Shown piece by piece: positions 1 to 29,438 of a stretch of DNA of 33,826 nt (within the stretch, counting starts at the first letter, position 1; every line of letters begins with the position of its first letter). A program made the position numbers and the translations under genes. Origin of the DNA: a virus; the IMG/VR virus record IMGVR_UViG_3300013126_000121, positions 1-33,826 of that record; one strand, written 5' to 3'. The notes beneath the pieces are model-generated. The model was not told the origin of the DNA, did not search any database, and was given only the letters and a program-made list of their open reading frames with translations.

Positions 1-597
1 AAAAACTATAATATTTGGGTTGTTGCTGAGTTCCTCCAAAATAACCTTCATTCGTTCTTCGAATTGACCTCTATATTTGGTTCCTGCAACAATTGAGTTC
101 ATATCCAATGAAACAATTCGTTTGTCGGATAAATTCTTTGGACAATCACCTTCATATATCTTCATTGCCAGACCTTCAATAATTGCAGTTTTACCACAAT
201 TATGTGATGATATACCATTAGATATGTATTTGCGTTCATTATCTAATACCTCAAGATCGTAGGTATCATGAACTCCAATTTCTTCATAAGATATGACTGA
301 ATGTAATTCATTGTTATCACACCAAACTAATTCACCTTCAGTAATGTTCGATAATTTAACCCAAGTAGATCCATTTTCTTTAATTGCGGTTGGGTTAAGG
401 GTGTTATCAGAAACTTCGACTAAGTGATCTTCCGATCCTGACAATTCATAACCATTATCTAAAACAATTTTAATACAATTTTTATTATGTTTTTTAAATA
501 AATTCCCTATTAACTTATATCCTGATGGTGTTTTTATTTTATATGTCCCGCCTTCTTTTTGTGTAAGATCAAAGAATTCGCCGATTGAAATTTTCAT
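1..597 (-). CDS. C-terminal half of a split-intein Clp ATPase (Int-C plus AAA+ domain), partial
   Basis: This frame opens with ATG at 597 and runs off the left edge. Residues 1-133 have intein C-part features: a block-B-like stretch with the LSGSEDH signature and a block-F-like end (VHDTYDLEVLDNERKYISNG) closing in SSHN. The next residues are CGKTAIIEGLA, then VAGTKYRGQFEERMKVIL, which is the Clp AAA+ D1 domain immediately after the Walker A glycines. The preceding frame ends in ...GDPG plus an intein start, so joining the exteins gives GDPG-C-GKT, a complete Walker A with Cys at +1. The start follows the upstream stop by 11 bases, with an A9 run and no Shine-Dalgarno. Known of the family: ClpA/ClpC-type unfoldases thread substrates in an ATP-dependent way. 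Inferred: the two polypeptides are joined by protein trans-splicing. A one-base sequence error separating a contiguous intein is the main alternative. Confidence 0.85.
   Translation of the reverse strand, partial: MKISIGEFFDLTQKEGGTYKIKTPSGYKLIGNLFKKHNKNCIKIVLDNGYELSGSEDHLVEVSDNTLNPTAIKENGSTWVKLSNITEGELVWCDNNELHSVISYEEIGVHDTYDLEVLDNERKYISNGISSHNCGKTAIIEGLAMKIYEGDCPKNLSDKRIVSLDMNSIVAGTKYRGQFEERMKVILEELSNNPNIIVF
199..597 (-). other. Int-C fragment of the split intein in the Clp Walker A
   Basis: One hundred and thirty-three residues from Met at 597 to the terminal His-Asn before Cys+1 at 198-196. Block B carries the conserved His (GSEDH) and block F ends SSHN. No endonuclease motif is present, so the reassembled intein is a mini-intein of about 159 residues. 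Confidence 0.75.
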
Positions 598-608
598 AAT
601 ATTTTTTT

Positions 609-902
609 TTAGTTGTTAATGTTCTCAATATTGTGAGTATCTACATCAGAAATTTTTTCAACTTCAATAATAGTATCCCCCAATACACATCCAGGATCAC
701 CTACTATAATTGGGTTGTTCTTTTTTCTTCTAGATAAAATCTGAGCGATTCTCATGATTTCTTTTTCTCTACCAACAACAGGATCCAATTTACCTTCTTC
801 GGCTAATTTATTTAGATCTCTACTGAAGTTATCTAATACAGGAGTTCCTTTGTCTGAGGTTTTTTTACCCTTATCATCGTTATTGTCCATATCTTCTATC
901 AT
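609..902 (-). CDS. N-terminal half of a split-intein Clp ATPase (N-extein plus 26-residue Int-N)
   Basis: This is a 97-residue protein. Residues 22-71 match the start of a ClpA/ClpC/ClpB first AAA+ domain ([27 protein letters not shown] type, then [10 protein letters not shown]). At residue 72 the Walker A is interrupted by [11 protein letters not shown], a standard intein block A with Cys1. The frame stops 26 residues later at TAA (611-609). The rest of the intein and of the ATPase restarts 11 bases downstream in a different frame. The Clp N-terminal substrate-adaptor domain is absent: only about 21 charged residues precede D1, as in trimmed phage Clp proteins. Nothing after the stop continues this frame. 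It can be functional only if trans-splicing or frameshifting joins it to the following gene. It is divergent from the gene at 1007 across a gap of about 100 bases. Confidence 0.85.
612..689 (-). other. Int-N fragment of the split intein in the Clp Walker A
   Basis: Twenty-six residues from Cys72 of the upstream half, beginning [11 protein letters not shown] (block A), run to the stop. Canonical split inteins have about 100 residues in the N part. A very short N part is the hallmark of the atypical class exemplified by the AceL-TerL intein. The break falls in the loop of the first beta-hairpin. Confidence 0.75.
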
Positions 903-3277: not shown

Positions 3278-3285
3278 TATTTATA
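3278..3285 (+). promoter_or_regulatory. putative late promoter element TATTTATA for the head-gene block
   Basis: ATATTTATATATA ends 11 nt before the ATG at 3297. No further copy occurs in the gene junctions until 10593, so this may drive the packaging/portal operon from 3297 to 10588. Confidence 0.55.
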
Positions 3286-5773: not shown

Positions 5774-7543
5774 ATGTCATTAACAAGGGAACAGGTTTTA
5801 CTAGAGTATGCTAAATGCGTAAATGATACACCTTACGCGCTTAAAACATATTTACAAACCTACGACAACACTCAATCTAAATACGTCCCTTTAGAGTTAT
5901 TTAACGACCAGGTTACACTTGTAAAAGATTACGATCAATGTGAAGAAAACATTGCATTAAAATACCGTCAAGCCGGTGTTTCTACAGTAACCTCAGCATG
6001 GGCATCTAAAAGATTAGTTTTTGCTCGAAAAGAAAAACCTGAAAAAATTCTAATTATTGCAAACAAACTCGACACTGCTGTTGAAATGGCAAATAAAGTA
6101 AGGGCGTTTGTTGATCAGTGGCCTTCATGGATAGGTATTAAATTTTCTGCAGAAAAAAACTCACAACGACACTTTAAACTTTCTAATGGTTGTGAAGTAA
6201 AGGCGGTTGCAACATCAAAAGATGCTCTTCGTGGGTATACACCTACTATTCTTATTTTTGATGAAGCGGCATATATTGATGCAGATGAAGATTTTTGGTC
6301 AGCATGTATGGCATCCCTATCCACAGGAGGTAAAGTTATTGTAATTTCAACACCAAACGGGTTTGATCCAATTTATTATTCAATCTACAGTCAGGCTATT
6401 AAAGGGATGAATGACTTTAGAATTACTGAAATGTATTGGTGGAGGGATCCAAGATATGCAAAAGATTTAAAACTTATCAAGTGTAATGATATAGTTCATT
6501 ATATGTTAAATAGAAGTGACTATAAAGACGATGAGATTACTCTTGATTATTCTAACACAAAACCAAGAGAAAGAGATTTTGAAGACATAAAAGTAAAAAT
6601 TGAAAATGGATACAAACCTTATAGTTCTTGGTTTGAGGCTATGGCTAAAAAATTAAAATTTGACAAGAGAAAAATATCACAAGAACTTGAATGTAATTTT
6701 TTAGGGTCAGGGGATAATGTTATTCCACCTGAAACTATGAAACGTATAAAAGACAACGATCTTAAAGAACCTGAAAACAAATTCATGGGTGGTGTATTAT
6801 GGCAATGGAAAGAACCTTTAATGGATCACAAATATATTATGGGTATTGACGTTTCAAGAGGGGATAGTGAGGATTTTACAACATTCACTATTATTGATTT
6901 TGATGAAAGAGAACAGGTATTAGAATATATTGCAAAAGTTCCACCTGATGTGGTTGCTGAAATTGCATATAAATGGGCAACAATGTATAATGCACTTATC
7001 ATAACCGATATTACTGGAGGTATGGGAGTTGCAACATCAAGAAAACTTCAAGAACTTGGTTATAAGAATTTATATGTAGATGGAGTAAATCCTGGAGATA
7101 AATGGAAGTGGGATCCAAAAATAAATGAAAAAATACCGGGGGTTAATTTTAATTCAAAAAGGGTTCAGATTGTAGCATCTTTTGAGGAGGCGTTACGACA
7201 CAACTTTAAAATTAGATCACAAAGATTATTTAATGAATTAAACACTTTTGTTTATGTAAATGGAAGACCTGATCACCAAAAAGGTCAACACGATGATTTA
7301 ATTATGGCAATGGCGATGGCCATTTACGTTGGTGAAACTTCTTTTGCAAAATTAGAAAAAGTAACTGAACAAACAAAGGCTATGTTAAATGCATGGGAAG
7401 TACAAACAACCGAACACAAAAATCCTTCTATTAATTATAACCCCGGACTTGCAAGCATGAGTCATTTAAATCAAAGGGCCGGTATGTATACCCCGAGCAA
7501 AAGTGATTATGAAAAGTATTTATGGTTATTCGGGGGTAAGTAA
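5774..7543 (+). CDS. terL: terminase large subunit (TerL, T4 gp17-like)
   Basis: A 589-residue motor of DNA packaging, close to T4 gp17 (610). The N-terminal ATPase has an adenine-binding region near residues 40-60, a Walker A-like YRQAGVST (64-71), Walker B ILIFDEAA (D163, E164) and a coupling motif VISTPNG (190-196). The C-terminal RNase H-like nuclease has its metal-binding acids in MGIDVSRGD (D359), IITDITGG (D412) and GQHDDLIMA (D507/D508). All catalytic positions are present, so it should be active. It would dock on the portal encoded next and cut concatemers into headfuls. The start ATG at 5774 has no Shine-Dalgarno. Unlike its neighbour, it is not interrupted by an intein, although terL is a frequent intein site. 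Confidence 0.97.
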   Translation: MSLTREQVLLEYAKCVNDTPYALKTYLQTYDNTQSKYVPLELFNDQVTLVKDYDQCEENIALKYRQAGVSTVTSAWASKRLVFARKEKPEKILIIANKLDTAVEMANKVRAFVDQWPSWIGIKFSAEKNSQRHFKLSNGCEVKAVATSKDALRGYTPTILIFDEAAYIDADEDFWSACMASLSTGGKVIVISTPNGFDPIYYSIYSQAIKGMNDFRITEMYWWRDPRYAKDLKLIKCNDIVHYMLNRSDYKDDEITLDYSNTKPRERDFEDIKVKIENGYKPYSSWFEAMAKKLKFDKRKISQELECNFLGSGDNVIPPETMKRIKDNDLKEPENKFMGGVLWQWKEPLMDHKYIMGIDVSRGDSEDFTTFTIIDFDEREQVLEYIAKVPPDVVAEIAYKWATMYNALIITDITGGMGVATSRKLQELGYKNLYVDGVNPGDKWKWDPKINEKIPGVNFNSKRVQIVASFEEALRHNFKIRSQRLFNELNTFVYVNGRPDHQKGQHDDLIMAMAMAIYVGETSFAKLEKVTEQTKAMLNAWEVQTTEHKNPSINYNPGLASMSHLNQRAGMYTPSKSDYEKYLWLFGGK

Positions 7544-7588: not shown

Positions 7589-10588
7589 ATGTCACAAGAA
7601 AAACTAACAGTATGGCAAAGAATAAGTAAGGCGTTTGGACCAAATTCAACTTTGGATCAACAATCCCCTGTATTTAAATTTGACAAACAAGAATTATTAA
7701 AGACCACTGACAAACAAGAATATGAAAGAGAAAAGTTGGAAGCCCAACAAACGATGTATCTTGGAAAACAATGGCAAAAAGTAGAAAGTAATCTTTATCA
7801 ACAAGCGGTTTATTATGAACCAACAAGACTTGCATCATATTATGATTACGAATCGATGGAATATTCGATTGCTGGGGATACTAAAATCGCAACTCCTGAT
7901 GGTTTTATAACTATTAAAGAATTAGCAGATAAAGGTAGGGATTATGAATTTATCACCTATGCTTATGATCATAACCAAAAAAAGGTTGTTCCTGCAATTG
8001 CAAGAAATGCTCATTATACACGAGATGAAATGAGTTATAAAATCACATTTGATGATGGTTCTCATATTATTGCAACATACGGACATAGATTTCTTAAAAG
8101 AGATGGTGTTTTTGAAGTAGTTGAAAATCTTAAGGAAGGTGATTCTATGATGCCATTTTATAGAAAATCATTTTATAATAATAAAAAATATAATTGGGTT
8201 TATACTTGCAATTCAAAAGAAGGACACAATGGGTGGGTTTCAGAACATAATTTAGTGGCTGAATGGTTCTATGATCAAAAAGTGAATAAAGACGAGGAAG
8301 TACATCATATTGATTTTAATGGGAAGAATAATAATCCCGAAAACCTTCAAATAATGAAAATATCGGAACATCGTGCATATCATGCAAGATTAAATAATGA
8401 AAGGTTATGGGCAAATCCTGAATATAGACAAAAAATGTCTGAAGTATCAAAAAGAACTGGTGAACATACATGGGGAGGTAAAAGACAGGGGGTAAATAAT
8501 CCTGCATATTTAAAACTTTCTTTTGAATCTATAATTGAAGCTGCTAAAAAACATAGAACAATTAATGAAACCGCCAAATCATTAGGTGTTTCATTTAGAA
8601 AGATTCAAAACGAATTGAGGTTTAATGGTTTTAAAAATTGGTTTGATTTTTTAGAAGTTTATAACATTCCAAAATATGTACCTCAGATTGAAGATAGAGA
8701 ATCATTGAATTTTAAAGTTATTCCTTGGGATTTAATTGTTGAGACGGCAACTAAACATGATACAATGAAGGAAGTTTGTGACAGTATTGGTATTGGTATA
8801 CCTAAATTAAGATCTACATTAAGAATGGGTGGTTATAACAATTGGAAAACCTTTAAGGATGCTTATGGTTTAAATTGCGGTGAAAGTGGTAGAAAAAAAC
8901 AAACAAAATTAAATGAAAGTAATGAATTAGTTATAAACCATAAAATAGTTTCAATTGAACCTTATGGAATTATTCCTGTATATGATTTAACAGTTCCTGG
9001 ATATAAAAACTTCGCGACTGATACTATATTTTCACACAATACTCCGGAAATCTCAGCATCATTAGATATATATGCAGAAGAATCGACCACACCAAATGAA
9101 GATGGTTATATTTTACAAATATATTCGGAGTCAAAAAGAATTAAATCGGTGCTAGCAGATCTTTTTAACAATAAGTTAGATGTGAATTCTAACTTACCTA
9201 TGTGGACAAGAAATACTTGTAAATACGGAGATAATTTTGTTTATTTAAAACTTGACCCTGAAAAAGGTATTGTCGGTTGCCAACAATTACCAAATATTCA
9301 AATTGAAAGATTAGAAAAAGGTATGAAATTCCAACCTGATAAGTATTCACAAGAAATGGAAAACGATGCGTTGAAGTTTGTGTGGAAAGAAAAGAATATG
9401 GAATTCAACACATGGGAAATTGCCCATTTTAGATTATTAGGGGATGATAGAAAACTCCCTTATGGAACATCGATGCTTGAAAAAGCAAGACGTATTTGGA
9501 AACAATTACTTTTATGTGAAGATGCAATGTTAATATATAGAACATCAAGAGCCCCTGAAAGAAGGGTGTTTAAAGTATTTGTTGGAAATATGGACGATAA
9601 GGACGTTGATGCGTACGTTCAAAGGGTTGCAAGCAAATTTAAAAGGGATCAAATTGTTGATGGAGCAACAGGTAATGTTGATATGAGATATAACCAAATG
9701 GCGGTAGATCAAGATTACTTTATTCCAGTAAGAGACCCCGCAGCGACAATGCCAATTGAAACCTTGGCGGGTGCTCAAAACCTATCAGAAATTGCAGATA
9801 TTGAATATATTCAAAAGAAACTTGTAACAGCTCTTAGAATACCAAAGGCATATCTTGGTTTTGAGGAAGCAGTAGGAGACGGAAAAAACTTATCTCTACT
9901 TGATATTCGTTTTGCAAGAACAATCAATAGAATTCAAAAGTGTATGATCGCAGAATTAAATAAAATTGCAATCATTCATTTATTTTTATTAGGGTTTGAA
10001 GATGAATTAACAAACTTTACATTAGGACTTACAAATCCATCTAAACAAGCAGATCTATTGGCGGTAGAAGTTTGGAAAGAAAAGATGTTACTATATAAAG
10101 ATGCGGTTGCTCCAATTCAAGATAGTGTCGCACCTGTTTCAGCATCTTGGGCTAAAAAGCACATATTAGGTTTTTCAGATGAAGAAATTAGATTAGATCT
10201 ACAACAACAAAGAATTGAAAGAGCGGTATCCGCTGAACTTACAAACACCGCTCAAGTTATTACAACTACCGGTATATTTGACACAATAGATAAACTATAT
10301 GGTAAGAAAGAGGGTGAATCGGCACCTGCGGCTGGTGGTGAAGAAGGTGGTGAAGGAGGAATGCCAGATATGGGTGGTTTAGGTGATATGGGAGGAGGAG
10401 CTCCACCCCCACCTCCAGGACCATCACCAGGTGGTGATGCGGGAGTAACACCTGAAAGTTTTAATGTGAATGATTTAAATTTAATCTTAGAAGATAAATT
10501 ATTTAAGGAAGTTGATATGGTAGATTTATCAAAAGGAAAAAACGCTTTAGTAGAAATAGACGATAAAATTAAGGAGTTTTTAAAATAA
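7589..10588 (+). CDS. portal protein (T4 gp20-like) precursor containing an HNH intein
   Basis: A 999-residue precursor made of a 607-residue portal and a 392-residue intein. The N-extein (residues 1-92) ends YYDYESMEY. The C-extein resumes at Thr485 with TPEISASLDIYAEEST, the conserved portal helix region. Further on, AHFRLLGDDRKLPYGTSMLEKARRIWKQL, MDVDAYV-type crown segments and RDPAATMPIETLAGAQNL match gp20-type portals. Twelve subunits would form the vertex channel on which TerL docks. The last ~110 residues include a Gly/Pro/Met low-complexity stretch (GGEEGGEGGMPDMGG, then PPPPPG), probably a flexible tail. Splicing is required for a normal portal. The start follows an A-rich leader without Shine-Dalgarno. 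Confidence 0.93.
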   Translation: MSQEKLTVWQRISKAFGPNSTLDQQSPVFKFDKQELLKTTDKQEYEREKLEAQQTMYLGKQWQKVESNLYQQAVYYEPTRLASYYDYESMEYSIAGDTKIATPDGFITIKELADKGRDYEFITYAYDHNQKKVVPAIARNAHYTRDEMSYKITFDDGSHIIATYGHRFLKRDGVFEVVENLKEGDSMMPFYRKSFYNNKKYNWVYTCNSKEGHNGWVSEHNLVAEWFYDQKVNKDEEVHHIDFNGKNNNPENLQIMKISEHRAYHARLNNERLWANPEYRQKMSEVSKRTGEHTWGGKRQGVNNPAYLKLSFESIIEAAKKHRTINETAKSLGVSFRKIQNELRFNGFKNWFDFLEVYNIPKYVPQIEDRESLNFKVIPWDLIVETATKHDTMKEVCDSIGIGIPKLRSTLRMGGYNNWKTFKDAYGLNCGESGRKKQTKLNESNELVINHKIVSIEPYGIIPVYDLTVPGYKNFATDTIFSHNTPEISASLDIYAEESTTPNEDGYILQIYSESKRIKSVLADLFNNKLDVNSNLPMWTRNTCKYGDNFVYLKLDPEKGIVGCQQLPNIQIERLEKGMKFQPDKYSQEMENDALKFVWKEKNMEFNTWEIAHFRLLGDDRKLPYGTSMLEKARRIWKQLLLCEDAMLIYRTSRAPERRVFKVFVGNMDDKDVDAYVQRVASKFKRDQIVDGATGNVDMRYNQMAVDQDYFIPVRDPAATMPIETLAGAQNLSEIADIEYIQKKLVTALRIPKAYLGFEEAVGDGKNLSLLDIRFARTINRIQKCMIAELNKIAIIHLFLLGFEDELTNFTLGLTNPSKQADLLAVEVWKEKMLLYKDAVAPIQDSVAPVSASWAKKHILGFSDEEIRLDLQQQRIERAVSAELTNTAQVITTTGIFDTIDKLYGKKEGESAPAAGGEEGGEGGMPDMGGLGDMGGGAPPPPPGPSPGGDAGVTPESFNVNDLNLILEDKLFKEVDMVDLSKGKNALVEIDDKIKEFLK
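7865..9040 (+). mobile_element. intein with HNH homing endonuclease inside the portal gene
   Basis: In-frame 392-residue insertion, portal residues 93-484. Block A is SIAGDTKIATPDG with Ser1 as nucleophile, block B has GSHIIATYGHRFL, and the C-terminus is VYDLTVPGYKNF...FSHN followed by Thr+1. An HNH nuclease core lies at residues 238-265 (VHHIDFNGKNNNPENLQIM, then HRAYH). It is followed by two similar helix-turn-helix modules at about 311-357 and 376-425, each ending in a FNGFKNWFDF or MGGYNNWKTF motif. They probably recognise the homing site. All splicing residues are intact. Confidence 0.92.
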
Positions 10589-10612: not shown

Positions 10613-11344
10613 ATGAACACTTTTGGATCAATTAAAACAAAAATAGAAAATGCATCGACAGAGGTATATAACACGCCGAAGTTTAAATCATTTATGAAAG
10701 AATTAAAAAATCATATTTTAGAAAATAAAGATATGAGTGAAATTTATTACATATATGACGATCTTTCATCAAATAAAGGATTATCAAATGATATCGCAGA
10801 AGAGTATGTAAATGAGTCTGTTGAGTATTTGCAAATTTTAATTGAGTCAAACAAACAAAAAATTAATCAAGTCGATAAGTGGATATCTAATTATACAAAA
10901 TCAAAAACAAATAACTACAAAGATATTGATACGACTGTTTATGAAAATTCTATTAGATCTTTAAAAACCGTTTTGGAATCAAAAAATAATATCAAATCAG
11001 TTATTAAAACAACCCCAAAAACTAATACAGTAAAAGAGTCTGTTAATCTTCCACTTTCATCTATGGTGAAAATTGCAACAACAACTTTTAATAAAAAATA
11101 TGAAAATATTAGTGAGGAAGATAAATCAAAATTAAAAGATCTTATTTCTTTAACTCCTTTAGAGGTAAAAGAAAAAATTAAATCATTAAAAGAAGAAGTT
11201 AGTTCTAAATTAAGTAAGACTTTAAACGAATCAACTGATAGTGAATTAAAAGAAACTTTATCAAAAACAATAGAAAAAATTAATTCATCAAAATCTGATT
11301 TATACAACCTATATAAACTTCAAGAATTAAATGGTGGGTTATGA
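10613..11344 (+). CDS. helical hypothetical protein, possible internal virion protein
   Basis: A 243-residue, Lys/Ser/Glu/Asn-rich protein predicted by eye to be almost entirely helical, with coiled-coil-like heptads in the last 100 residues (LKDLISLTPLEVKEKIKSLK, then KLSKTLNESTDSELKETLSK). It has no membrane segment or catalytic motif, and I do not recognise the family. It lies between the portal and the protease, where T4 carries small core proteins (gp67/68), so a prohead core role is possible. It has its own late-type promoter and overlaps the following membrane protein by ATGA coupling. Confidence 0.75.
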   Translation: MNTFGSIKTKIENASTEVYNTPKFKSFMKELKNHILENKDMSEIYYIYDDLSSNKGLSNDIAEEYVNESVEYLQILIESNKQKINQVDKWISNYTKSKTNNYKDIDTTVYENSIRSLKTVLESKNNIKSVIKTTPKTNTVKESVNLPLSSMVKIATTTFNKKYENISEEDKSKLKDLISLTPLEVKEKIKSLKEEVSSKLSKTLNESTDSELKETLSKTIEKINSSKSDLYNLYKLQELNGGL

Positions 11345-11619
11345 AAAAAAACAACAAATACTTTTTTGGTTGGGGAAATATAAAATGGGGACTTAAAGAA
11401 CTCATCACTATGTATTCGGCAAAAACATCCTTTTTTTCTAAAAAGAGAATTGAGTCAGGTGTTGCTTTTTTAATTGCACAGTGGGGAATGATTTTCTTTT
11501 TGATGAAAAAATATCCAACACTTTCTATGACAGATTTTGTGATGTGGGTTGCCGTTGAGATGGCAGTTGCAGGATATATGGTTCACCAAATACAAAAAGA
11601 AAAAAAGGAAAATCCTTAA
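11341..11619 (+). CDS. small membrane protein with two predicted TM helices
   Basis: A 92-residue protein. A basic, aromatic N-terminal third (KKNNKYFFGWGNIKWGLKEL) is followed by two hydrophobic segments, about residues 39-57 (SGVAFLIAQWGMIFFLMKK) and 62-82 (TDFVMWVAVEMAVAGYMVHQ), with a very basic tail (QKEKKENP). Size and topology resemble small phage holins or inner-membrane proteins. No endolysin lies beside it, so a holin call is not justified. It is translationally coupled (ATGA) to the helical protein upstream and converges on rpsU with a 2-base gap. Confidence 0.7.
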   Translation: MKKNNKYFFGWGNIKWGLKELITMYSAKTSFFSKKRIESGVAFLIAQWGMIFFLMKKYPTLSMTDFVMWVAVEMAVAGYMVHQIQKEKKENP

Positions 11620-11621
11620 AT

Positions 11622-11804
11622 TTAACTTTTTATTTTTTGTAAGTATTTTGCCTTTTTTATTTGGGATCTTCTTTTAACGGACGGTTTTTCAAACTCTTGT
11701 CTTTTTCTCAAAACTTCATTTTGCTTTGATTTATAAACTTTAAATTTATAAGTTTTTAATGCCGACTCGATAGAGTTTCCGTTTTTTACTGGTACTATAA
11801 TCAT
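11622..11804 (-). CDS. rpsU: ribosomal protein bS21
   Basis: A complete 60-residue bS21. MIIVPVKNGNSIESALKTYK is the family's N-terminal strand and first helix. The motif RRQEFEKPSVKRR in its local form (LRKRQEFEKPSVKRRSQIKK) and the end KAKYLQKIKS match the Bacteroidota type, including a Tyr at residue 54. bS21 sits on the 30S platform next to the 3' end of 16S rRNA. In Flavobacterium the anti-Shine-Dalgarno is held by bS21 with bS18 and bS6, and the host rpsU gene uniquely has a strong Shine-Dalgarno for autoregulation. This phage copy has none: the ATG is preceded by CCAATTTTTT. It is a lone leftward gene inside the rightward head block with its own upstream signals. Inferred: it replaces or tops up host bS21 to favour phage mRNAs. 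Confidence 0.92.
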   Translation of the reverse strand: MIIVPVKNGNSIESALKTYKFKVYKSKQNEVLRKRQEFEKPSVKRRSQIKKAKYLQKIKS

Positions 11805-11824
11805 AAAAAAATTGGATTTATAGA

Positions 11825-11832
11825 TATAAATA
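11825..11832 (-). promoter_or_regulatory. putative late promoter element TATTTATA before rpsU
   Basis: Minus strand ATATTTATATC, 20 nt before the rpsU ATG. Confidence 0.45.
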
Positions 11833-11846
11833 TATCAATACGTTTG

Positions 11847-11854
11847 CAAATATA
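11847..11854 (-). promoter_or_regulatory. candidate Bacteroidota -7 box TATATTTG before rpsU
   Basis: Minus strand TATATTTG fits TAnnTTTG about 42 nt before the ATG. No good TTG is present at the expected upstream distance, so this is only a half-site. It would allow earlier host-polymerase expression of bS21. Confidence 0.3.
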
Positions 11855-11922: not shown

Positions 11923-12372
11923 ATGAAAAAAGGAAAAACGTCAAAATTAAACATCTTAAAAGATGCAAAATGTCATTATGGAACTGTGGATTCCAAAGAT
12001 TTTAAATCATTATATATTGTAATTCAAACATGGGTCGAACCTCAAGACGATTACGAAAATTGGAATAGAATAACAGGACAAATCAAAAGACAAATTCAAC
12101 ACACACTACTAGAAGTTACAGATTACACATTATTTGATAAAAAACAAATTGTTGATTTGGATCTTAGAACAAGTGGGATACAAAAAAATAAAAAGAGTTT
12201 TTTAAACCTTGAAGTTACGTTATTTTTAAACAAGGAAAATGTTGATTTTAAATCAATTTATTTAAGGGAAAAGATCAAACAAATGATAAATGGAATTTAC
12301 ACTGATGATCTTAAAAACTCAAAATATTTTACATTAAGTAAGACAAAAGATAAAGAATTGGTATTAATATGA
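11923..12372 (+). CDS. hypothetical protein before the prohead protease
   Basis: A 149-residue, Lys-rich protein of unrecognised family. It has alternating strands and helices and no signal, membrane or catalytic motif. Notable stretches are YIVIQTWVEPQDDYENWNRI and LRTSGIQKNKKSFLNLEVTL. An ATG at 11916 in another frame gives only a short peptide, so 11923 is the start. It precedes the protease by 19 bases, and the protease has its own late-type element in that gap. Its position between portal and protease suggests a head or neck protein, but nothing in the sequence shows this directly. Confidence 0.75.
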   Translation: MKKGKTSKLNILKDAKCHYGTVDSKDFKSLYIVIQTWVEPQDDYENWNRITGQIKRQIQHTLLEVTDYTLFDKKQIVDLDLRTSGIQKNKKSFLNLEVTLFLNKENVDFKSIYLREKIKQMINGIYTDDLKNSKYFTLSKTKDKELVLI

Positions 12373-12391: not shown

Positions 12392-13102
12392 ATGAAAATA
12401 TTAGGACCTAATGATATTGGTATGGGTATTCTTATTGAACACGATGCTGGAACAATTAACCCAAAAGACAAAAGAAATCTAAATGTTATAGAAGAGTCCT
12501 ACGGGCAATTAGATCACTCAAAACCATTTGAGTTTTACGCAACTCTTCAAAAATACGGAGTACCAAATAGAAATGGTAGAATATATCCTGAAAAAATTCT
12601 AAGACGTGAAGCGGATCGTTATAACGAAATGATTAATAAAGGTTTATCTATTTCAGAATTAAATCACCCTGAATCATCACTTATAGATTTAGATAGAGTA
12701 TCTCACCTCATCACTAAAATATGGTGGGAAGATAACGTCCTTGTTGGAAAAATTAAATTACTTACAACTCCAGGATTTCATGAAAGAGGAGTTGTTTCAT
12801 CAAAAGGAGATGTTGCTGCAAATATGATGAGACAAGGAGTTACTATGGGAGTATCATCAAGAGGAGTTGGATCTTTAGTGAAAAAGGGAGAACAAAATGA
12901 AGTACAAGATGATTTTGAACTTATTTGTTTTGACCTTGTTTCTTCACCATCAACACCCGGAGCATATCTTTACATGAATAAAGAGGATAGATCAAGATAT
13001 GATGAAAACATTGAACAAAAGAAAGAAAATGAAATTATTTCAAGTGGACTTGGTAAATCTGTTGACTTAATGAAAAGATTATCCGATTATTTGGGTAAGT
13101 AA
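12392..13102 (+). CDS. prohead core protease (T4 gp21-like, peptidase U9)
   Basis: A 236-residue maturation protease, near the 212 of T4 gp21. Family features are GVPNRNGRIYPEKIL (58-70), the catalytic-His region SELNHPES (His92), and the catalytic-Ser region TMGVSSRGVGSL (Ser155 or Ser156), followed by FDLVSSPSTPGAYL. This family forms a Ser-His protease that, inside the assembled prohead, cuts scaffold, capsid N-terminus and internal proteins, in T4 after (L/I)xE. Here the likely targets are the scaffold-like protein at 13479, the capsid protein at 14882 (LINE-A at residues 57-61) and other proteins with N-terminal (I/L)xE segments. Gene order portal, protease, scaffold, capsid is as in T4 (20-21-22-23). 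Confidence 0.93.
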   Translation: MKILGPNDIGMGILIEHDAGTINPKDKRNLNVIEESYGQLDHSKPFEFYATLQKYGVPNRNGRIYPEKILRREADRYNEMINKGLSISELNHPESSLIDLDRVSHLITKIWWEDNVLVGKIKLLTTPGFHERGVVSSKGDVAANMMRQGVTMGVSSRGVGSLVKKGEQNEVQDDFELICFDLVSSPSTPGAYLYMNKEDRSRYDENIEQKKENEIISSGLGKSVDLMKRLSDYLGK

Positions 13103-14881: not shown

Positions 14882-16687
14882 ATGGGAGCATTATTAGAAT
14901 CAGGTCTTGTTGGTAACATCGGTCTTAAGCACCTTAAAGTTATCAAAGAAGATACAATCAACAAATGGGACAAATTAGGATTCCTAGACGGTCTTAAAGG
15001 ACACATCAAAGAGAACATGGCACAATTATATGAAAACCAAGCATCTCACCTAATCAATGAAGCTGCTTCAACCGATAGTTCAGGTTCTTTCGAAACTGTA
15101 GTATTTCCTATCGTAAGAAGAGTTTTCTCTAAATTGTTGGCTAACGATTTAGTATCTGTACAAGCAATGAACTTACCAATTGGTAAATTGTTCTATTTTG
15201 TACCTAAAATTCAAGGATACCAAAATGGTCAAGATCCTACTGCGGGAGGTACACATTTTGCACCGCTTGGTGCTCCAAATGGTCCTGCTTCACAAGGAGC
15301 TGGATATGCTACAGGTGACAAAAACCTTTATGACAGATTTTATGAAGGTGCTGAACCAGCATTAGATCCACCAGGGCTTTTTGATTACTCTAAAGGTAGA
15401 TTCTCAGCAATTACTTCAACTGACGTAACTACAGTTGCGTGGAGTGCTGGTGATTTAGTACCTTCAGCTTACGCAGCAGGTGAATATAGAAAAGTTCTTT
15501 TAGTACTTTCTGGGTTCTCTAACGCAGGTGCTGGAAAACTTATCGGACCTGATGGTCAAGAAATGGATAACGAAGCATTCCTTTCTGATTTACACGTAAA
15601 TGCAGTTACAACTGCGGGTGGAGCATTCTCAGGTGCAGGATCTGGCAACCTATTATTTAGAGTTGTTACTCAAAAATATGGTAAAGGTATCGTTCAGTAC
15701 GGTGTTCAAACACCTACAACATTCCCTACTGATGGAAATGGTGGTTCTTACGATAATATCTGTTCTGCAGATGGTAAAATCTACTTAGAAGTTGATCTAC
15801 AAGTACCATGCGCGTTAGGAGCTAATTCACTTGATGGTTATTCAGGTTTAACTACCACAATCGCAGGTGATGCAGCTGCAGGTACACAATTTACTGCAAC
15901 TTATAGAGTATACGAAGAGTTAGAATTCGAAGACAAAATTGGTGAAGTTTCTTTTGACCTTGAGTCAGTAACTGTTTCTGTTACAGAAAGAAAACTAAGA
16001 GCACAATGGTCTCCTGAATTGGCACAAGACGTTTCTGCATTCCATAACATCGATGCTGAAGCTGAACTTACAGCTTTATTATCTGAGCAAGTGGCAGCAG
16101 AAATTGACCGTGAAATCCTTCGTGACTTGAGAAAAGGAGCCGCTTGGACTCTTCGTTGGGATTACAACGGATGGAAAAGAGGTACTTCGGCTAATCCATT
16201 AACTCAGTACACTCAAAAAGACTGGAACCAAACGTTGATCACAGCTATCAACCAAATTTCAGCACAAATTCACAAATCTACACTTAGAGGTGGAGCTAAC
16301 TGGATCGTAGTATCTTCTGAGATTTCAGCAATCTTTGATGATCTTGAGTACTTCCACGTATCTAACGCTTCTCCTGAGCAAGATCAGTATAACATGGGTA
16401 TTGAAAGAGTTGGTACTCTTGCAGGACGTTACCAAGTTTATCGTGATCCTTACTTCCCACCAAACACAATCTTGTTGGGTCACAAAGGAACATCATTGTT
16501 AGACACAGGATACGTTTACGCACCGTACGTACCTCTACAATTAACACCTACAATGTATAACCCATTCAACTTTACTCCGATTAAAGGAATTATGACGAGA
16601 TACGCGAAGAAAATGGTGAACAACCGTTTCTACGGACGTATCACTGTTGATGGTGTACGTACATTTGATCTTAGAGAATTGAGATAA
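14882..16687 (+). CDS. major capsid protein (T4 gp23-like)
   Basis: A 601-residue HK97-fold capsid protein, longer than T4 gp23 (521). Diagnostic stretches are YENQASHLINEAAS (50-63), ETVVFPIVRRVFSKLLANDL and VSVQAMNLPIGKLFYFVPK in the N-terminal third. Near the C-terminus are VYRDPYFPPNTILLGHKG and YAPYVPLQLTPTMYNPFNFT. The segment LINE-A (cut after Glu60) is the likely maturation site, since gp21-type proteases cut after (L/I)xE and gp23 loses 65 residues. A Gly/Ala/Thr-rich insertion at about 115-350 probably forms a surface domain. Codon use here is the most GC-leaning in the window (many AAC, TTC, TAC, ATC), as expected for the most highly expressed gene. A strong terminator follows. Confidence 0.96.
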   Translation: MGALLESGLVGNIGLKHLKVIKEDTINKWDKLGFLDGLKGHIKENMAQLYENQASHLINEAASTDSSGSFETVVFPIVRRVFSKLLANDLVSVQAMNLPIGKLFYFVPKIQGYQNGQDPTAGGTHFAPLGAPNGPASQGAGYATGDKNLYDRFYEGAEPALDPPGLFDYSKGRFSAITSTDVTTVAWSAGDLVPSAYAAGEYRKVLLVLSGFSNAGAGKLIGPDGQEMDNEAFLSDLHVNAVTTAGGAFSGAGSGNLLFRVVTQKYGKGIVQYGVQTPTTFPTDGNGGSYDNICSADGKIYLEVDLQVPCALGANSLDGYSGLTTTIAGDAAAGTQFTATYRVYEELEFEDKIGEVSFDLESVTVSVTERKLRAQWSPELAQDVSAFHNIDAEAELTALLSEQVAAEIDREILRDLRKGAAWTLRWDYNGWKRGTSANPLTQYTQKDWNQTLITAINQISAQIHKSTLRGGANWIVVSSEISAIFDDLEYFHVSNASPEQDQYNMGIERVGTLAGRYQVYRDPYFPPNTILLGHKGTSLLDTGYVYAPYVPLQLTPTMYNPFNFTPIKGIMTRYAKKMVNNRFYGRITVDGVRTFDLRELR

Positions 16688-16809: not shown

Positions 16810-18525
16810 ATGAAAACCAAATTAAACGAAAATGATATTTCAGAAATAATTGATTTATACCAAACTAAAATACCAAGCACTCATAAGTTGGCGGAAAAAT
16901 ATAAAGTAGGTCACAAAAAAATATCACAAATTTTAAAGGAGAATAATATCGACATCAATAAAAAAGGTGGACAATCAAAAATAGGTAATAGTTCTGAAAT
17001 AGAATCAAGTAAAACAAATCTATATATTGCAAATGATAATTACGAGTTAGTTGCAAAATGTAAAAAAACTAACACCATAATTAATGACCCAAACAATTTA
17101 TCAGGAATGTTGACTAAACATATTGTTAATCTATATGGGGATGTTAATATACCAAAAAATAATTACCAACGAAAAAAATATGAGTTGATTAATGGTAAAA
17201 AATGGTTTGAGGAGTTTTTTGATATTATTGAATTGGAAATAAAACCAACCAGACAATGTAAATTGTGTAAATGGAATACAACTGATATAAATAATAAAAC
17301 GGGTTGTTTTGAACAACACATTCAAAAACATCATAATATAACAATAAAGGAATATATTGATAAATTCCCTGAAGATTCTCACCTACATATAAAATTATTA
17401 GATAAACTACAACGGGAAGTTAAATTAAAAGAAATTGATAATTTCGTTATTTGTAAGTTGTGTGGTGAAAAAATGATGAGTGTCACTAATACTCATTTAA
17501 TCAATAAACATAACATTTCTGTAGCAGAATATAAATTAAGATTTCCAAATGATAAAATAGTTTCAAATAGTATATCAAAGATATTGAGTGATAATGCAGT
17601 ACTAACTAATTTTAATATGTCACCGACTTGGGCATCGAAGGGTGAAACGGAAATACGAGAATTTATTGAAAGTTTGGGATTTGAAACTGAGAAGGGATCC
17701 AATCGTAAATTATTAAATGGTAAGGAAATTGATGTTATGGTCAAAGGTACTAATATTTTGTTTGAGTATAATGGGTTATATTATCACACCGAAAAAATGG
17801 GTAAAAAATATAATTATCACTTAAATAAAACTATTGAATGTAATCAATTGGGTTATAAGTTAATTCAGATATTTGAAGATGAATGGATAACTAAAAAGGA
17901 GTTAGTTAAAACCAAGATTAAACACATTTTAAAGGTGAATGACGGAGTTAAAATTGGGGGTAGAAATGTTACCATAAAAACAATTAATAAAGAGGATAAA
18001 ACATTCTTTTTAAATAATTACCATATTCAAGGATCCGATAAATCAAAAATTTCTTATGGTGCATATTATAAAGATGAATTAGTTGGTGTAATGACGTTTA
18101 ATTCAAAACGAAATATGACAAAAAATAACGACCATGAGTATGAGTTGAGTAGATATTCAACAAAACAAAATTTTATCATAAGTGGGTTGGCGTCGAAATT
18201 TTTAAAACAATTTATTAATGATTATTCACCAAAAAGTATTATCAGCTTTGCTGATCGAAGATGGACAGTAGATCCTGATAATAACTTATATGTAAATTTG
18301 GGGTTTGATCTCGTTTCAATTGTAAAACCTAACTATTTCTATTATAATTCAAAGATTAATAAATACAAAAGATATCATAAATTTTCTTTTGGTAAAAATA
18401 ACATCAAAAAAAAATATCCAAATCTTGATTTTACAAAATCTGAAAAAGAATTAACTGAAGAATTGGGGTTTGACAAGATATGGGATTGTGGATTATTTAA
18501 GTATAAATTATCAATTGACAAATAG
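16810..18525 (+). CDS. free-standing homing endonuclease with Vsr-like nuclease domain
   Basis: A 571-residue multidomain protein. Residues 1-50 form a helix-turn-helix (STHKLAEKYKVGHKKISQIL). Two zinc-finger-like units follow: CKLCKW with H-x4-H at about 149-178, and CKLCGE with H-x4-H at about 215-236, each ending in an EY/FP motif as in MucR-type fingers. A Vsr/EDxHD-like nuclease core spans about 278-380 (GETEIREFIESLGFE, then EIDVMVKGTNILFEYNGLYYHTE). The C-terminal domain (about 385-570) has YGAYYKDELVGVMTFNSKR and SIISFADRRWTVDPDNNLYV, a module I know from phage homing endonucleases and that looks GNAT-like. Vsr-related homing enzymes were first described beside fractured genes with split inteins. 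It lies between capsid terminator and secreted-protein gene and probably homes to that intergenic site. Confidence 0.85.
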   Translation: MKTKLNENDISEIIDLYQTKIPSTHKLAEKYKVGHKKISQILKENNIDINKKGGQSKIGNSSEIESSKTNLYIANDNYELVAKCKKTNTIINDPNNLSGMLTKHIVNLYGDVNIPKNNYQRKKYELINGKKWFEEFFDIIELEIKPTRQCKLCKWNTTDINNKTGCFEQHIQKHHNITIKEYIDKFPEDSHLHIKLLDKLQREVKLKEIDNFVICKLCGEKMMSVTNTHLINKHNISVAEYKLRFPNDKIVSNSISKILSDNAVLTNFNMSPTWASKGETEIREFIESLGFETEKGSNRKLLNGKEIDVMVKGTNILFEYNGLYYHTEKMGKKYNYHLNKTIECNQLGYKLIQIFEDEWITKKELVKTKIKHILKVNDGVKIGGRNVTIKTINKEDKTFFLNNYHIQGSDKSKISYGAYYKDELVGVMTFNSKRNMTKNNDHEYELSRYSTKQNFIISGLASKFLKQFINDYSPKSIISFADRRWTVDPDNNLYVNLGFDLVSIVKPNYFYYNSKINKYKRYHKFSFGKNNIKKKYPNLDFTKSEKELTEELGFDKIWDCGLFKYKLSIDK

Positions 18526-18662: not shown

Positions 18663-21428
18663 ATGAAACGTTTACTACTACTGTTTTTTATTTTTATATC
18701 ATTTTTTAACTTTGGTCAAATTAGTTATTCTCAAAATTGGTCGACAACAACATTAAATAGTTGGACAAATCAGAATGGGGGTTTTGTACGTACAACAACG
18801 GGAGTTTGTGCAACAACTGGTTCTGTTCGGGCGAACATATGGAGTTCGAATGTTACAGGTAATTTTGCATCACCACTATTATCAGGAAATAATAGTGGGT
18901 TAGTAACCGTATCATATCTCTATAAGATAATCAATTATAGTGGTGGTGCAGCAACACCAAATACCTTTGGTACATTAAAGGTACAGTACGCGAGTGCTTT
19001 GACGGGACCGTGGACTGATGTGCCAAATTCGACTGTCAGTACAAATCATTCACCAAGTACTTCATGTCAAACACAAGTTGTTCAGTTTACGCCAAGTGCG
19101 GGTAATGTGTATATAAGATTTAATGTTGTGCGGTCTGCAGGTGATTATTATATGTATTTTGACGATGTAACAATTTCACAAGGGTCAGCACCATCTTGTA
19201 CTTCACCAACATCTTTATCCTCCTCATCTGTTGCAACAACTACCGCAACAATTTCATGGGCGGCAGCTTCACCCGCACCAAGTAATGGATATCAATATTT
19301 TTTATCAACATCATCATCGGCACCAACATCAGGAACAACACCAACAGGGTCAACCGCCGCTGGTGTCACATCAGTTAATTTATCAAGTCTAAATTCAGGT
19401 ACACAATATTATTTTTGGGTTAGGTCAAATTGTGGGGGGTCTCAATCTTCTTGGGCTGGTAGTAGTACGTTTACTACAACCATACCACCACCATCAAATG
19501 ATTTATGTTCAGGGGCCACTAATCTACCATGTGGTACTTCAAATTTAGCTGGTACAACCGTTGGTACTGTAAGTGAAACCGCTCCAAATGCTTCCACTAG
19601 TGGAACAAGGGGTGTATGGTATAGCTTTGCAGGGGATGGTCAGCAAACTACCATAACAGTTGTGCAAAGTTTAAATACAAGACTACTTGTTTTAACCTCA
19701 AGTACAGGATCATGTGGTGGAACATATACAACAGTTGCAAACGTAGATAACACTACAAGCACAAACGAAACTGCAACCTTTACGGCAAACAGTGGAACAA
19801 ACTATTTTGTATATGTTGGTTATTGGACTTCAGGAACAAACACAGGAACATTTACAATAAGTAGAACATGTACTTCTCCCCCCTCAAATAATAACTGTTC
19901 AAGTGCTCCCGCTTTAACAATAAATTCAGGGACTAGTTGCGGGTCTTCAACAAACGGCACAACGGTAGGTGCTAATCAATCCATTTCGGCATGTGCAGGA
20001 ACAGCTGATGATGATGTTTGGTATTCCTTTGTTGCAAATGGTACAAGTCAAACTATTACGGTTACACCTGGTACTATGTCGGATGCTGTTCTTCAAGTAT
20101 TTAGTGGAACATGTGCTGGATTAACTTCACTTGTATGTGTAGATAATACTTTGGGGTCTTCGGCTGAAACAACAACCGTTACAGGTTTAACAAACGGGGT
20201 AACATATTATGTTAGAGTTCATAGTTATGGAAATGGAACAGGACAAGGTACATTCTCAATTTGTGCCACAACACCATGTTCCACTCCTACCACTGCTGGT
20301 ACATTATCTGCAAATAAAACATCAACTGTTGTAAATGATGGTGTAGTTTATACAACAACCGGTAATGGAGGTAGCATCACAAAATTGGAATGGTCATTTG
20401 ATAATTTTACAACGGTAGCAGGAACTGTAAATAACCCAGCTAATCCTTATACATTTTGTTTGAATGTCCAACAACCAACTGCATACGTGAGAGTAACCTC
20501 AATAAATGGAACTTGCCCAGCTGGTATCACAAATATAGTTTCAGTTAACCTAACTTCGGCACCCCCATACACATATGGGACTAGTTCTGGGGATTATATT
20601 TCAAATGTAACTTTAAACACAATAAACAACAGTTCAACATATGACGCACCACAAGGTTATGATTCATATCAAGATTTTACATCAATTTCAACAACGTTAG
20701 CACGAGGATCCACTTATACAATATCGGCTTCTAGCACAATGACTTATAGTAACTATTCTGGTTATGCTGCATGGATTGATTATAATGGAGATGAGATATT
20801 TCAAGTAACTGAAAATATCATGCAACAACCCTATGGTGCTACTAGATCACAATCATTTACTGTACCTGCCGGAACCAATCCGGGTTCATATAGAATGCGC
20901 GTGTTGTCTTCTTGGTTGGAAACACCATCAACAGATGCTTATTTATCTGCTGGATACGATTGGGGTGAGATCGAGGAATATACCGTAAATGTAACATTTG
21001 GTCTTCCTGTTGAATTAATAACCTTTGATGGTACAAATAAGGATAATAATAATTACTTATTTTGGGTAACTGCGACCGAACATAATTCAAGTCATTTTAA
21101 TCTACAAAAAAGTAGAGATGGTGAAAATTGGGTGACGATCACAACTATAAATGCTGCCGGTTACTCAACAAATACTATTGACTATGATGTTATAGATTAT
21201 AAGGTTGAACCAATTGTAAATTATTATAGATTACAACAATACGATAATGACGGAGTGTATGAAACCTTTGGACCTATATCTATTAATAATACTAATGGAG
21301 AATCTTTAAAAACTATAGTAAAATACGTAAATTTAAATGGTCAAGAAATAGATCCTAATAAACTCGGGTTTATGGATGTTTATATTGAAGTTTATAGTGA
21401 TGGAACTATTAGAAAAGTGATCAAATGA
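18663..21428 (+). CDS. secreted multidomain surface protein (FnIII, two PPC/MAM-like beta domains, GEVED, T9SS-type C-terminus)
   Basis: A 921-residue protein resembling Bacteroidota exported proteins. Residues 1-24 are a Sec signal peptide (MKRLLLLFFIFISFFNFGQ). About 30-172 is a jelly-roll/MAM-like region ending YYMYFDDVTISQG. About 176-272 is a fibronectin III domain (TATISWAAASPAPSNGYQY, then SGTQYYFWVRSNC). Two similar beta domains follow, each starting PPSN and containing WYSFAGDG or WYSFVANG (about 277-405 and 407-540). GEVED lies at about 640-778 (YAAWIDYNGDEIF, GSYRMRVLSSW, WGEIEEYTVNV). From 780, LPVELITFDGTNKDNNNYLF, then NYYRLQQYDNDGVYETFG and a short end (VNLNGQEID, VYIEVYSDGTIRKVIK) match the pre-sorting and sorting region of T9SS cargo. 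Known: T9SS moves such proteins across the outer membrane. Inferred: the infected host exports it to the cell surface. A virion adhesin acquired from a host is the alternative. Confidence 0.85.
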   Translation: MKRLLLLFFIFISFFNFGQISYSQNWSTTTLNSWTNQNGGFVRTTTGVCATTGSVRANIWSSNVTGNFASPLLSGNNSGLVTVSYLYKIINYSGGAATPNTFGTLKVQYASALTGPWTDVPNSTVSTNHSPSTSCQTQVVQFTPSAGNVYIRFNVVRSAGDYYMYFDDVTISQGSAPSCTSPTSLSSSSVATTTATISWAAASPAPSNGYQYFLSTSSSAPTSGTTPTGSTAAGVTSVNLSSLNSGTQYYFWVRSNCGGSQSSWAGSSTFTTTIPPPSNDLCSGATNLPCGTSNLAGTTVGTVSETAPNASTSGTRGVWYSFAGDGQQTTITVVQSLNTRLLVLTSSTGSCGGTYTTVANVDNTTSTNETATFTANSGTNYFVYVGYWTSGTNTGTFTISRTCTSPPSNNNCSSAPALTINSGTSCGSSTNGTTVGANQSISACAGTADDDVWYSFVANGTSQTITVTPGTMSDAVLQVFSGTCAGLTSLVCVDNTLGSSAETTTVTGLTNGVTYYVRVHSYGNGTGQGTFSICATTPCSTPTTAGTLSANKTSTVVNDGVVYTTTGNGGSITKLEWSFDNFTTVAGTVNNPANPYTFCLNVQQPTAYVRVTSINGTCPAGITNIVSVNLTSAPPYTYGTSSGDYISNVTLNTINNSSTYDAPQGYDSYQDFTSISTTLARGSTYTISASSTMTYSNYSGYAAWIDYNGDEIFQVTENIMQQPYGATRSQSFTVPAGTNPGSYRMRVLSSWLETPSTDAYLSAGYDWGEIEEYTVNVTFGLPVELITFDGTNKDNNNYLFWVTATEHNSSHFNLQKSRDGENWVTITTINAAGYSTNTIDYDVIDYKVEPIVNYYRLQQYDNDGVYETFGPISINNTNGESLKTIVKYVNLNGQEIDPNKLGFMDVYIEVYSDGTIRKVIK

Positions 21429-23046: not shown

Positions 23047-24522
23047 TTATTTTTTGTTTACGATTTGGAATTGTAGTTCCCTTTTATAAGTGTCTATATT
23101 TCTATCTGAATTTACTTTTAAATCGACAAAATATTCATTAGGTATCTTATCTCTTGTATCAAATATGAAATAATAATTGTCGGGTGTTTGGTTTATCCGA
23201 GTCCAATCTTGGACTTGTACTTCTGTTTTACCTTCTCTTACATAAATTCTGTAATATGCTTCTACATTATGAAGTGGTGTGTTTGTTGAGTAAGCTTGTT
23301 TTATTGTAACATTAACTTTTCTAACATCAGTATTTAAAATCTTTTCATTTTGTTTAATTCCGTCAAAATCAAAACCATAAAGTTTTGGTCGTTGAGTCGT
23401 TGTTCCAATTTGATAGTATCCTGATCCTCCTAATACGACGAATTCATTTTCAATGTCAGGTATATTTGAACCATTAATTGTTAAATTTGACCATAAGTCA
23501 TAAAATAAACAAGGTATCGTGTCACCACTTAATCCATTCACATCTACTTTATAAACACCTTTTGTCACTAAACAGGTTGGTAGATTTGTAAAACCCAAAA
23601 CCGCATCTCCAGCACTATCTAAAATGGTCACAGTTGGGTTTGTATCAAAATTAATCGGATTGCCATTAACGTACGAATATAAATAAAGAGAGTTATTTAC
23701 GTTTTCGTAAAAATTATTTCTGTTGTCTAATATTAAATCATCATATGTTGTTTCTAAAAATGGTTCAAAAAAGGTTTGTGTATATGGAGAAAAGAATCCA
23801 ACAGAATAATTTTCTGTCATACCCGTGATATTTTCTATTTCGGGATAAAATGCAATTCCCCAACCGGCAACATTAGTTATTACCCCATTAATAATACCCT
23901 CAATTTCATTTGTCATATCAAAAGAAATATCCTCATTTCCAAATTCAAAATGCTGGGTATCAATTATAGTTAAACCACTAAAATTAAGACCCGTCACTCC
24001 GGTTAAAGAGTTTGTATTATCATATAGTCCAGGTTGAGACCAATTATCTACGGTTGTCCTTTGAAACCAATTGGATGGTCTTTCAGAAAAGGATTTGTCT
24101 GTTTCATATTTTGCTCCAACATCATAATAATCATATCCTACACCACTATCCCATATTTGAACTGCACCTGTACTTCCTGACACTTTAGGTATTCTAAATA
24201 ATACTAAATCAAATGATGTTGCCCTTCTTCTACCTTGTGATGTTGTATCGTTAATAAGTTCTTTATCAAACGCAGACGTATTTGTCATGTTTAAAACATG
24301 TTTAATTGTTTGTCCGCAACCTGTTGTGATTACTTTTTCATCATAAAGTTCTGTGAGTCCTGATAAATCAATATCAAATATATAACGACTAAAACCTGTG
24401 GGTAATAATATGTTATCTACACGACCATAAAACAACTCAACAATTGGATTTCTTGCCGTGTTGGTGTATGAGTCCGATGTAATAGTATTTGATTTACTAA
24501 AATAAGATCGGTAAATTGACAT
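23047..24522 (-). CDS. probable tail/baseplate structural protein, DNRLRE-like N-half
   Basis: A 491-residue beta-rich protein. The N-terminal half has the rhythm of DNRLRE/CBM96-like beta-sandwich domains: ATSFDLVLFRIPKVSG, VQIWDSGVGYDYYD, FDMTNEIEGIINGV, AGWGIAFYPEIENITG and FFEPFLETTYDD. From about 290 there is an Ig-like segment (NPTVTILDSAGDAVLGF, then VTKGVYKVDVNGLSG), and the C-terminal 110 residues form another beta domain. No signal peptide or membrane segment is present. It has its own late-type element (24535-24542) and follows the gp5-like baseplate gene. A baseplate-wedge, fibre-connector or carbohydrate-contacting virion protein fits. The specific role is unknown. Confidence 0.7.
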   Translation of the reverse strand: MSIYRSYFSKSNTITSDSYTNTARNPIVELFYGRVDNILLPTGFSRYIFDIDLSGLTELYDEKVITTGCGQTIKHVLNMTNTSAFDKELINDTTSQGRRRATSFDLVLFRIPKVSGSTGAVQIWDSGVGYDYYDVGAKYETDKSFSERPSNWFQRTTVDNWSQPGLYDNTNSLTGVTGLNFSGLTIIDTQHFEFGNEDISFDMTNEIEGIINGVITNVAGWGIAFYPEIENITGMTENYSVGFFSPYTQTFFEPFLETTYDDLILDNRNNFYENVNNSLYLYSYVNGNPINFDTNPTVTILDSAGDAVLGFTNLPTCLVTKGVYKVDVNGLSGDTIPCLFYDLWSNLTINGSNIPDIENEFVVLGGSGYYQIGTTTQRPKLYGFDFDGIKQNEKILNTDVRKVNVTIKQAYSTNTPLHNVEAYYRIYVREGKTEVQVQDWTRINQTPDNYYFIFDTRDKIPNEYFVDLKVNSDRNIDTYKRELQFQIVNKK

Positions 24523-28691: not shown

Positions 28692-29438
28692 TTATTGACT
28701 ATGTATTTTTTTCAAGGTGGACAAGTATAACTGCTTATATTTTTTTAAACAGACCCTTATTTCTTTTGTATTTAAATTAGTCATTTCTCTTAATGAAAGT
28801 AAAACAATATTTTTATTGAACTTATTATTGTTATTTCCAATAAAAATATTACCATAATCATCAAAAAGATCTATTAATGCATAACCTAATTTTAATTCGT
28901 TTTCTGTTAGATTTTCTTTAGTGATATAAACATTTAAATCGTTTAAAAAAATATCAATTATTTTATCGGCTTCTATTTTTTCAAATTCCATGTAATAGAC
29001 CATATCCGGTCTATTTTCTAACGTGGTTGAAATATCTTCATATGAAACTTTTCGGTTCATATCCTTTTGGTCTTTTTGTATTTGACCCATAAGATAGTTT
29101 TTACAAATAGTTCCAAAATAGGAGTACGCCTTTTTATTCTTTGCCGGTTTAAACTTATCAACTTTCGTTATAAGAAAGGAATGAGTATCACGATGTATGT
29201 CGTCATAATTCATGTCCTTTCTATAAAGTTTATACCTTCGAATAATGGACTCGATCATTTTATCTAAAGGATCTTTTAAATACGTATTGTAAATTTCCTC
29301 TTTTTCTTCTTTACAGTCAGACAATATATATTGTTTAACCGCATCTTCCTCACGAACATCAAAATAATTTTTACTTGGTGGTTTCGTCTTTTTCTTTAAT
29401 ATGTCTTGATTGTAATCATAATTTTCAGATAAAAACAT
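28692..29438 (-). CDS. phage sigma factor (T4 gp55-like late sigma)
   Basis: A 248-residue protein with a sigma region 2 but no recognisable region 4. About residues 56-125 read DPLDKMIESIIRRYKLYRKD (core-binding helix), MNYDDIHRDTHSFLITKVDK and FKPAKNKKAYSYFGTICKNY followed by LMGQIQKDQKD. The 'FKPxKxxxAYSYFxTIxKNYLMGxIxKDxK' layout is that of gp55-type sigma factors (KFxP..xxPFAYfTqI in T4). gp55 (185 residues) steers host RNA polymerase to TATAAATA-type late promoters together with a clamp-loaded activator. The window's repeated TATTTATA element is its obvious candidate target. Translation is coupled to the upstream glycosyltransferase by TAATG. Confidence 0.85.
   Translation of the reverse strand: MFLSENYDYNQDILKKKTKPPSKNYFDVREEDAVKQYILSDCKEEKEEIYNTYLKDPLDKMIESIIRRYKLYRKDMNYDDIHRDTHSFLITKVDKFKPAKNKKAYSYFGTICKNYLMGQIQKDQKDMNRKVSYEDISTTLENRPDMVYYMEFEKIEADKIIDIFLNDLNVYITKENLTENELKLGYALIDLFDDYGNIFIGNNNNKFNKNIVLLSLREMTNLNTKEIRVCLKKYKQLYLSTLKKIHSQ

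Follow-up and report, generated by a model that had tools for sequence, protein, structure and literature searches.

Phage-encoded bS21 without the Shine-Dalgarno sequence of flavobacterial rpsU: a possible escape from host feedback in Bacteroidota phages

Most Flavobacteriales carry a single gene with a strong Shine-Dalgarno (SD) sequence, rpsU, and translate their remaining mRNAs without one (McNutt et al., 2023; PMC9976891). In Flavobacterium johnsoniae, the rpsU product bS21 is essential, and ribosomes without it, or without its C-terminus, prefer rpsU and do less well on mRNAs that have no SD; when the bS21 C-terminus is missing, translation of an SD-less message falls about two-fold (PMC9976891). 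Tyr54 of this protein stacks on A1534 (PMC9976891; Jha et al., 2021, as cited there). Phages encode bS21 as well. Chen et al. (2022; PMC9723584) described Bacteroidetes bS21 phages (clades a–e; genomes of ~293–331 kb) and already reported the antisense location of the gene, Tyr54 and the late transcription of bS21 with the head genes, published a ribosome-takeover hypothesis and proposed an mRNA-selecting role for the N-terminal region of the protein. Pelagibacter phage HTVC008M, which represents another phage and host group, also encodes a bS21 (Mizuno et al., 2019; PMC6375957), and this protein enters Escherichia coli ribosomes (as cited in PMC9723584). McNutt et al. discussed phage bS21 too and suggested autoregulation as a possible counter to it (PMC9976891). 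In the main text of Chen et al. we found nothing on the leaders, promoters or autoregulation of phage bS21, nor a description of the promoter-like motif, the loss of Gly27 or the SD-bearing clade reported below (PMC9723584); in McNutt et al., too, we found phage bS21 leaders nowhere discussed (PMC9976891).

Here we analyze a virus record of 33,826 bases (“the window,” i.e., the whole stretch of DNA studied), a fragment and not a bacterial genome, in which a tRNA search found none. Its bS21 gene and the block around it are as follows.

5774–7543, plus strand: terminase large subunit, TerL (PF03237, E 5.8e-13)
7589–10588, plus strand: portal protein (gp20) with a large HNH intein near its N-terminus (PF07230, E 2.2e-72; PF14890; HNH)
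11341–11619, plus strand: 92-aa protein convergent with bS21, found in loci L001–L006 only, i.e., the window’s own clade
11622–11804, minus strand: phage-encoded bS21, 60 aa, with Tyr54 and the phage-type residues F21/V23/Y24/K27/Q28 (translation, PF01165, 7jil, residue table)
11923–12372, plus strand: 149-aa protein divergent from bS21, without a Pfam match; a conserved neighbor
12392–13102, plus strand: prohead protease, Peptidase S77 (PF03420, E 4.8e-21; phrog_207)
14882–16687, plus strand: major capsid protein (MCP), gp23 type (PF07068, E 3.1e-72)

The bS21 reading frame is intact (60 codons, no internal stops), and its product matches PF01165 (Ribosomal_S21) over residues 4–54 at 46.4 bits against a cut-off of 27. 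The best match among solved structures is bS21 of F. johnsoniae (7jil, E 5.5e-12), in which Tyr54 occupies the same position. The gene sits antisense within the TerL–portal–protease–capsid block: 10613–11344, 11341–11619, 11923–12372 and the protease all run rightward, unlike bS21, which converges on 11341–11619 and diverges from 11923–12372, and since every other gene between TerL and capsid, both included, is rightward too, bS21 is the lone antisense gene here. A preliminary description of this DNA had reported a complete 60-residue bS21 with Tyr54, leftward and alone in the head block, and the translation, Pfam and 7jil matches bear this out.

Chen et al. (2022; PMC9723584) have already described the group into which the window bS21 falls, the Bacteroidetes bS21 phages, and the gene is not new. 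The window has the marks of that group (a reverse-strand bS21 in the block, Tyr54, F21, V23, Y24 and Q28) and shares with its described members an antisense bS21 between conserved hypothetical genes, the TerL/portal/protease/MCP block, an aromatic residue 54, divergence at positions 21–28, a Flavobacteriia-like bS21, and PhoH and Clp-type genes; judged by what is described there, we see no difference in kind. Set against the published genome sizes, the window and its relatives are fragments. The F. johnsoniae protein is homologous to the phage protein and both have Tyr54 (PMC9976891), but the phage gene lacks the extended SD and encodes Lys27-Gln28 in place of Gly27-Thr28 in a chain of 60 rather than 64 aa.

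Several other genes of the window deserve mention in their own right. At 1–902 (minus strand), a Clp-type ATPase gene is interrupted at its Walker A motif (GDPG / CGKT): the N-terminal ORF stops after ~26 intein residues (...NINN), a second ORF begins ~12 bases on, with an intein part that ends SHN ahead of CGKT, and the exteins match consecutive parts of phrog_4871 (158–224 and 223–288). The arrangement resembles a naturally split intein. The gene at 16810–18525 (plus strand), which lies between those for the capsid and an adhesin-like protein, encodes a predicted nuclease whose MTES_1575-like match is weak; it may be a free-standing homing endonuclease. The adhesin-like product of 18663–21428 (plus strand), a secreted-looking protein of 921 aa with fibronectin III and GEVED domains, is unusual for a phage; it may be an adhesin that came from a host, or a protein of the virion surface.

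The comparison took in 186 viral bS21 loci, comprising 103 distinct bS21 proteins, 89 distinct leaders and ~47 protein clusters at 80% identity; in INPHARED, only distant relatives were found. One viral contig with a host-like bS21 (L155) was left out of this set, as its locus has no head synteny and its protein is nearly identical to that of bacterial rpsU (L311/L313). Wherever the contig reaches, the bS21 loci have in common the antisense synteny with the 149-aa gene, protease, portal and TerL. The 149-aa gene adjoins bS21 in nearly all loci that extend that far, and its product may correspond to bS21_CN in Chen et al. We dropped the idea that it is a strict partner of bS21, as in ~7 loci with flank available the gene has no bS21 next to it. 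A tree was built by a quick search from 64 columns, with 47 phage and 111 host sequences; many of its forks are unresolved, and a branch with SH-aLRT 98.7 sets all phage bS21 apart, beside flavobacterial bS21. The simplest reading of tree and synteny would be a single, old acquisition of bS21 from a flavobacterial-type host.

The start region of the window gene comprises the following elements, upstream of the ATG on the bS21 strand.

11805–11824, minus strand: SD-less, T-rich leader of 20 nt, from promoter-like motif to ATG (pairing with the 16S 3' tail, +2.0 kcal/mol)
11825–11832, minus strand: TATTTATA, probable phage promoter element resembling a -10 element (enrichment and conservation)
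11847–11854, minus strand: TATATTTG, candidate box picked out by eye from the sequence

The leader (...TATTTATATCTATAAATCCAATTTTTTT-ATG) pairs with the 16S 3' tail at +2.0 kcal/mol at best, so that an SD is absent, as the preliminary description had noted, and with it the extended SD (approximately -13 kcal/mol or stronger) that marks an SD-autoregulated rpsU. That description had also called phage starts A-rich and SD-less, which is true of the phage genes in general: when genes of the window and of four related contigs are called simply by longest ORF, pairing at -8 kcal/mol or stronger occurs at 6/643 starts vs 29/643 mock windows taken further upstream, and A makes up 61–70% of positions -13 to -10. 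The bS21 start itself departs from this pattern, being T-rich, with seven T directly before the ATG. In an AT-rich phage with few SDs anywhere, a missing SD at one gene is unsurprising and is no evidence by itself; the informative part is the contrast with host rpsU and its consistency across related phages.

That contrast is sharp in the sequences compared. A strong SD is missing before 102 of the 103 distinct phage bS21 proteins, while one precedes rpsU in all 80 Flavobacteriaceae-type loci (80/80; -17.6 to -22.1 kcal/mol). The comparison is new in this analysis; no later paper on phage bS21 leaders surfaced in a search whose coverage of subscription papers and preprints is thin, which leaves novelty unproven. 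Across the phylum (a sample of 118 genomes, a canonical anti-SD being assumed for each), 82 of 112 rpsU genes examined reach -8 kcal/mol or stronger, and 10 of 31 Tyr54-type rpsU in this sample have no strong SD, so that some hosts may have no loop to escape. Among bacterial genomes, SD-less rpsU occur at L327, L354 and L347 (surroundings L402, L403 and L404). Two of the three are second copies, each in a genome that has an SD-bearing rpsU as well, and lie near a gene for an RpoD-like sigma factor; in a tree of poor resolution, no host sequences lie nearer the phage clade than these three. Mobility of these genes was considered and dropped, since ordinary chromosomal genes surround them.

The octamer TATTTATA, which ends 20 nt before the bS21 ATG in the window, is probably a phage promoter element. 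On the sense strand it occurs at ~106 positions in the 80-nt windows upstream of 642 genes (five contigs), where its overall frequency would give 7.6, and it is kept in the bS21 leaders of most phage clades. In the window, it also precedes the protease (as the variant TATTTATC), the gene starting at 24522 (minus strand) and others, structural genes included; example sites lie at 3278, 10593 and 16790 (plus strand) and at 24542 and 11832 (minus strand). The distance from its end to the start codon is 3–5 nt in 28 cases and 11–13 nt in 33, and these two preferred distances suggest leaderless or very short-leadered phage messages; those with the octamer 3–5 nt away, an arrangement found at the bS21 starts of L043–L055 and, with a variant motif, L156–L176, may be almost leaderless. 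At bS21, the octamer would provide the gene with its own transcript, which would fit the late transcription reported by Chen et al. (PMC9723584). The product of 28692–29438 (minus strand) has a weak match to a late sigma factor family (phrog_234, E 2e-4) and is a candidate for recognizing TATTTATA. Further upstream of bS21, TATATTTG resembles TAnnTTTG, the Bacteroidota -7 box.

The phage protein keeps one half of its sequence and changes the other. In the 47-protein phage alignment, no sequence departs from Lys40, Ser42, Arg46 or Ala52, and Lys51 is almost constant; among the 103 distinct proteins, residue 54 is mostly Tyr (95) and otherwise His (6) or Phe (2). The N-terminal half departs from the near-invariant flavobacterial sequence at positions 21, 23, 24, 27, 28, 30 and 37 (Chen et al. 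named 21, 23, 25 and 28 as divergent; PMC9723584). Gly27, invariant in the flavobacterial set, is found in none of the 103, which have Lys (95), Gln (6) or Arg (2) instead; Gln28 is present in 93/103 and in no host sequence tabulated. Some other Bacteroidota have Lys or Arg27 too, which leaves Gln28 as the one seemingly phage-exclusive residue. For the host protein, AlphaFold2 predicts three helices (12–25, 28–37 and 41–63; pLDDT 75), and for the phage protein a continuous helix 12–36 (pLDDT 87). We therefore hypothesize, from models of isolated proteins built on different alignments and off the ribosome, that helices 1 and 2 become one when Gly27 is lost. No significant match came from a fold search with the phage model (best, 8fmw_U, E 0.27).

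Taken with the published behavior of F. johnsoniae ribosomes, these data lead us to a reading that we regard as having about an even chance of being right: that a large family of Bacteroidota myophages captured and kept a flavobacterial-type bS21, which replaces host bS21 and lies outside its feedback. The phage protein would be made in infection independently of that feedback, as bS21-poor ribosomes should give no boost to a gene without an SD, which ordinary ribosomes should translate. It would then enter ribosomes, displacing host bS21, and through its conserved C-terminal half (Lys40, Ser42, Arg46, Lys51) and aromatic residue 54 would presumably sequester the anti-SD. Host rpsU would thereby be turned down as phage synthesis stayed on; because the host loop senses only the presence of a sequestering bS21, the phage protein should shut rpsU as well, and replacement would be self-reinforcing. 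The altered N-terminal half may tune initiation, perhaps toward short, A-rich phage leaders. Both the escape and the kept sequestration are plausible in light of the near-universal lack of a strong SD and the identity of residue 54. Each had been proposed in the preliminary description, and for the escape the support is that of sequence comparison.

The preliminary description had gone further, holding that the phage protein hides the anti-SD so that SD-less phage messages beat SD-led host messages generally. The depletion of SDs at phage starts and the retention of residue 54 agree with this, yet we consider it very improbable: host messages in Flavobacteriales are SD-less too, rpsU typically being the single strong-SD gene (PMC9976891), so that sequestration can disfavor only host rpsU. 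If other phage messages are preferred, some further property has to account for it, for example the altered N-terminal half. It is also conceivable, if rather unlikely, that the phage simply supplies bS21 to new or bS21-poor 30S subunits for SD-less initiation and leaves message choice unchanged. The essentiality of bS21 in F. johnsoniae and the reduced SD-less translation without its C-terminus (PMC9976891) favor such a supply, as do the retained C-terminal sequestration positions, but the shared phage changes at 21, 23, 24, 27, 28 and 37 are not needed for plain supplementation. A more elaborate scenario, in which SD-less phage bS21, made whatever the state of the ribosomes, shuts host rpsU in a self-reinforcing switch to phage-type ribosomes, the fused, Gly27-less helix alters start choice and an SD-bearing lineage has come back under the host sensor, strikes us as doubtful.

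A different question is whether the missing SD was selected at all. The gene may have been captured without its leader, with phage promoters leaving short, SD-poor leaders of no selected meaning, an account with a substantial though somewhat less than even chance. Phage starts in general are SD-depleted, and the octamer ends 3–5 or 11–13 nt before the ATG in 61 of ~106 cases, leaving little room for an SD; against this, the spacer in the window’s clade is longer (20 nt) and has room for one, and one clade gained or kept an SD at bS21 itself. This account concerns selection, and it is compatible with escape from feedback as a consequence. The clade in question (L020–L022, L024 and L025) has the sole strong SD among the 186 viral loci, AAAGGAGG, at -12.2 kcal/mol.

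L020, 6001–6180: bS21 with the AAAGGAGG SD

Given this clade, escape from SD feedback is not universal. On a tree of the protease and the 149-aa protein, gain or loss of the SD needs one change. We entertain, tentatively, host-like control here, i.e., that L020-type bS21 is made on demand by bS21-deficient ribosomes. The motif stands eight bases upstream of the ATG and in G120, the longest contig of the clade (166 kb), is the strongest SD among 157 starts, a parallel to hosts, in which a strong SD typically marks rpsU alone (PMC9976891); it is, however, shorter and weaker than the host’s (-20), and with one clade only and a rough chance expectation of ~0.1 for one SD at -12 or stronger among ~47 protein clusters, the SD-bearing clade is a lead and not a result.

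F. johnsoniae provides an unambiguous case of ribosomes of altered composition regulating a specific gene, and a phage bS21 freed from that host loop would allow the reason for ribosomal protein genes in phages to be tested directly, with the SD-bearing sister clade as a natural contrast to the SD-less phage genes. If our reading is true, an rpsU'-gfp reporter is predicted to be lowered by phage bS21 and by host bS21, and not by a Y54A phage bS21.
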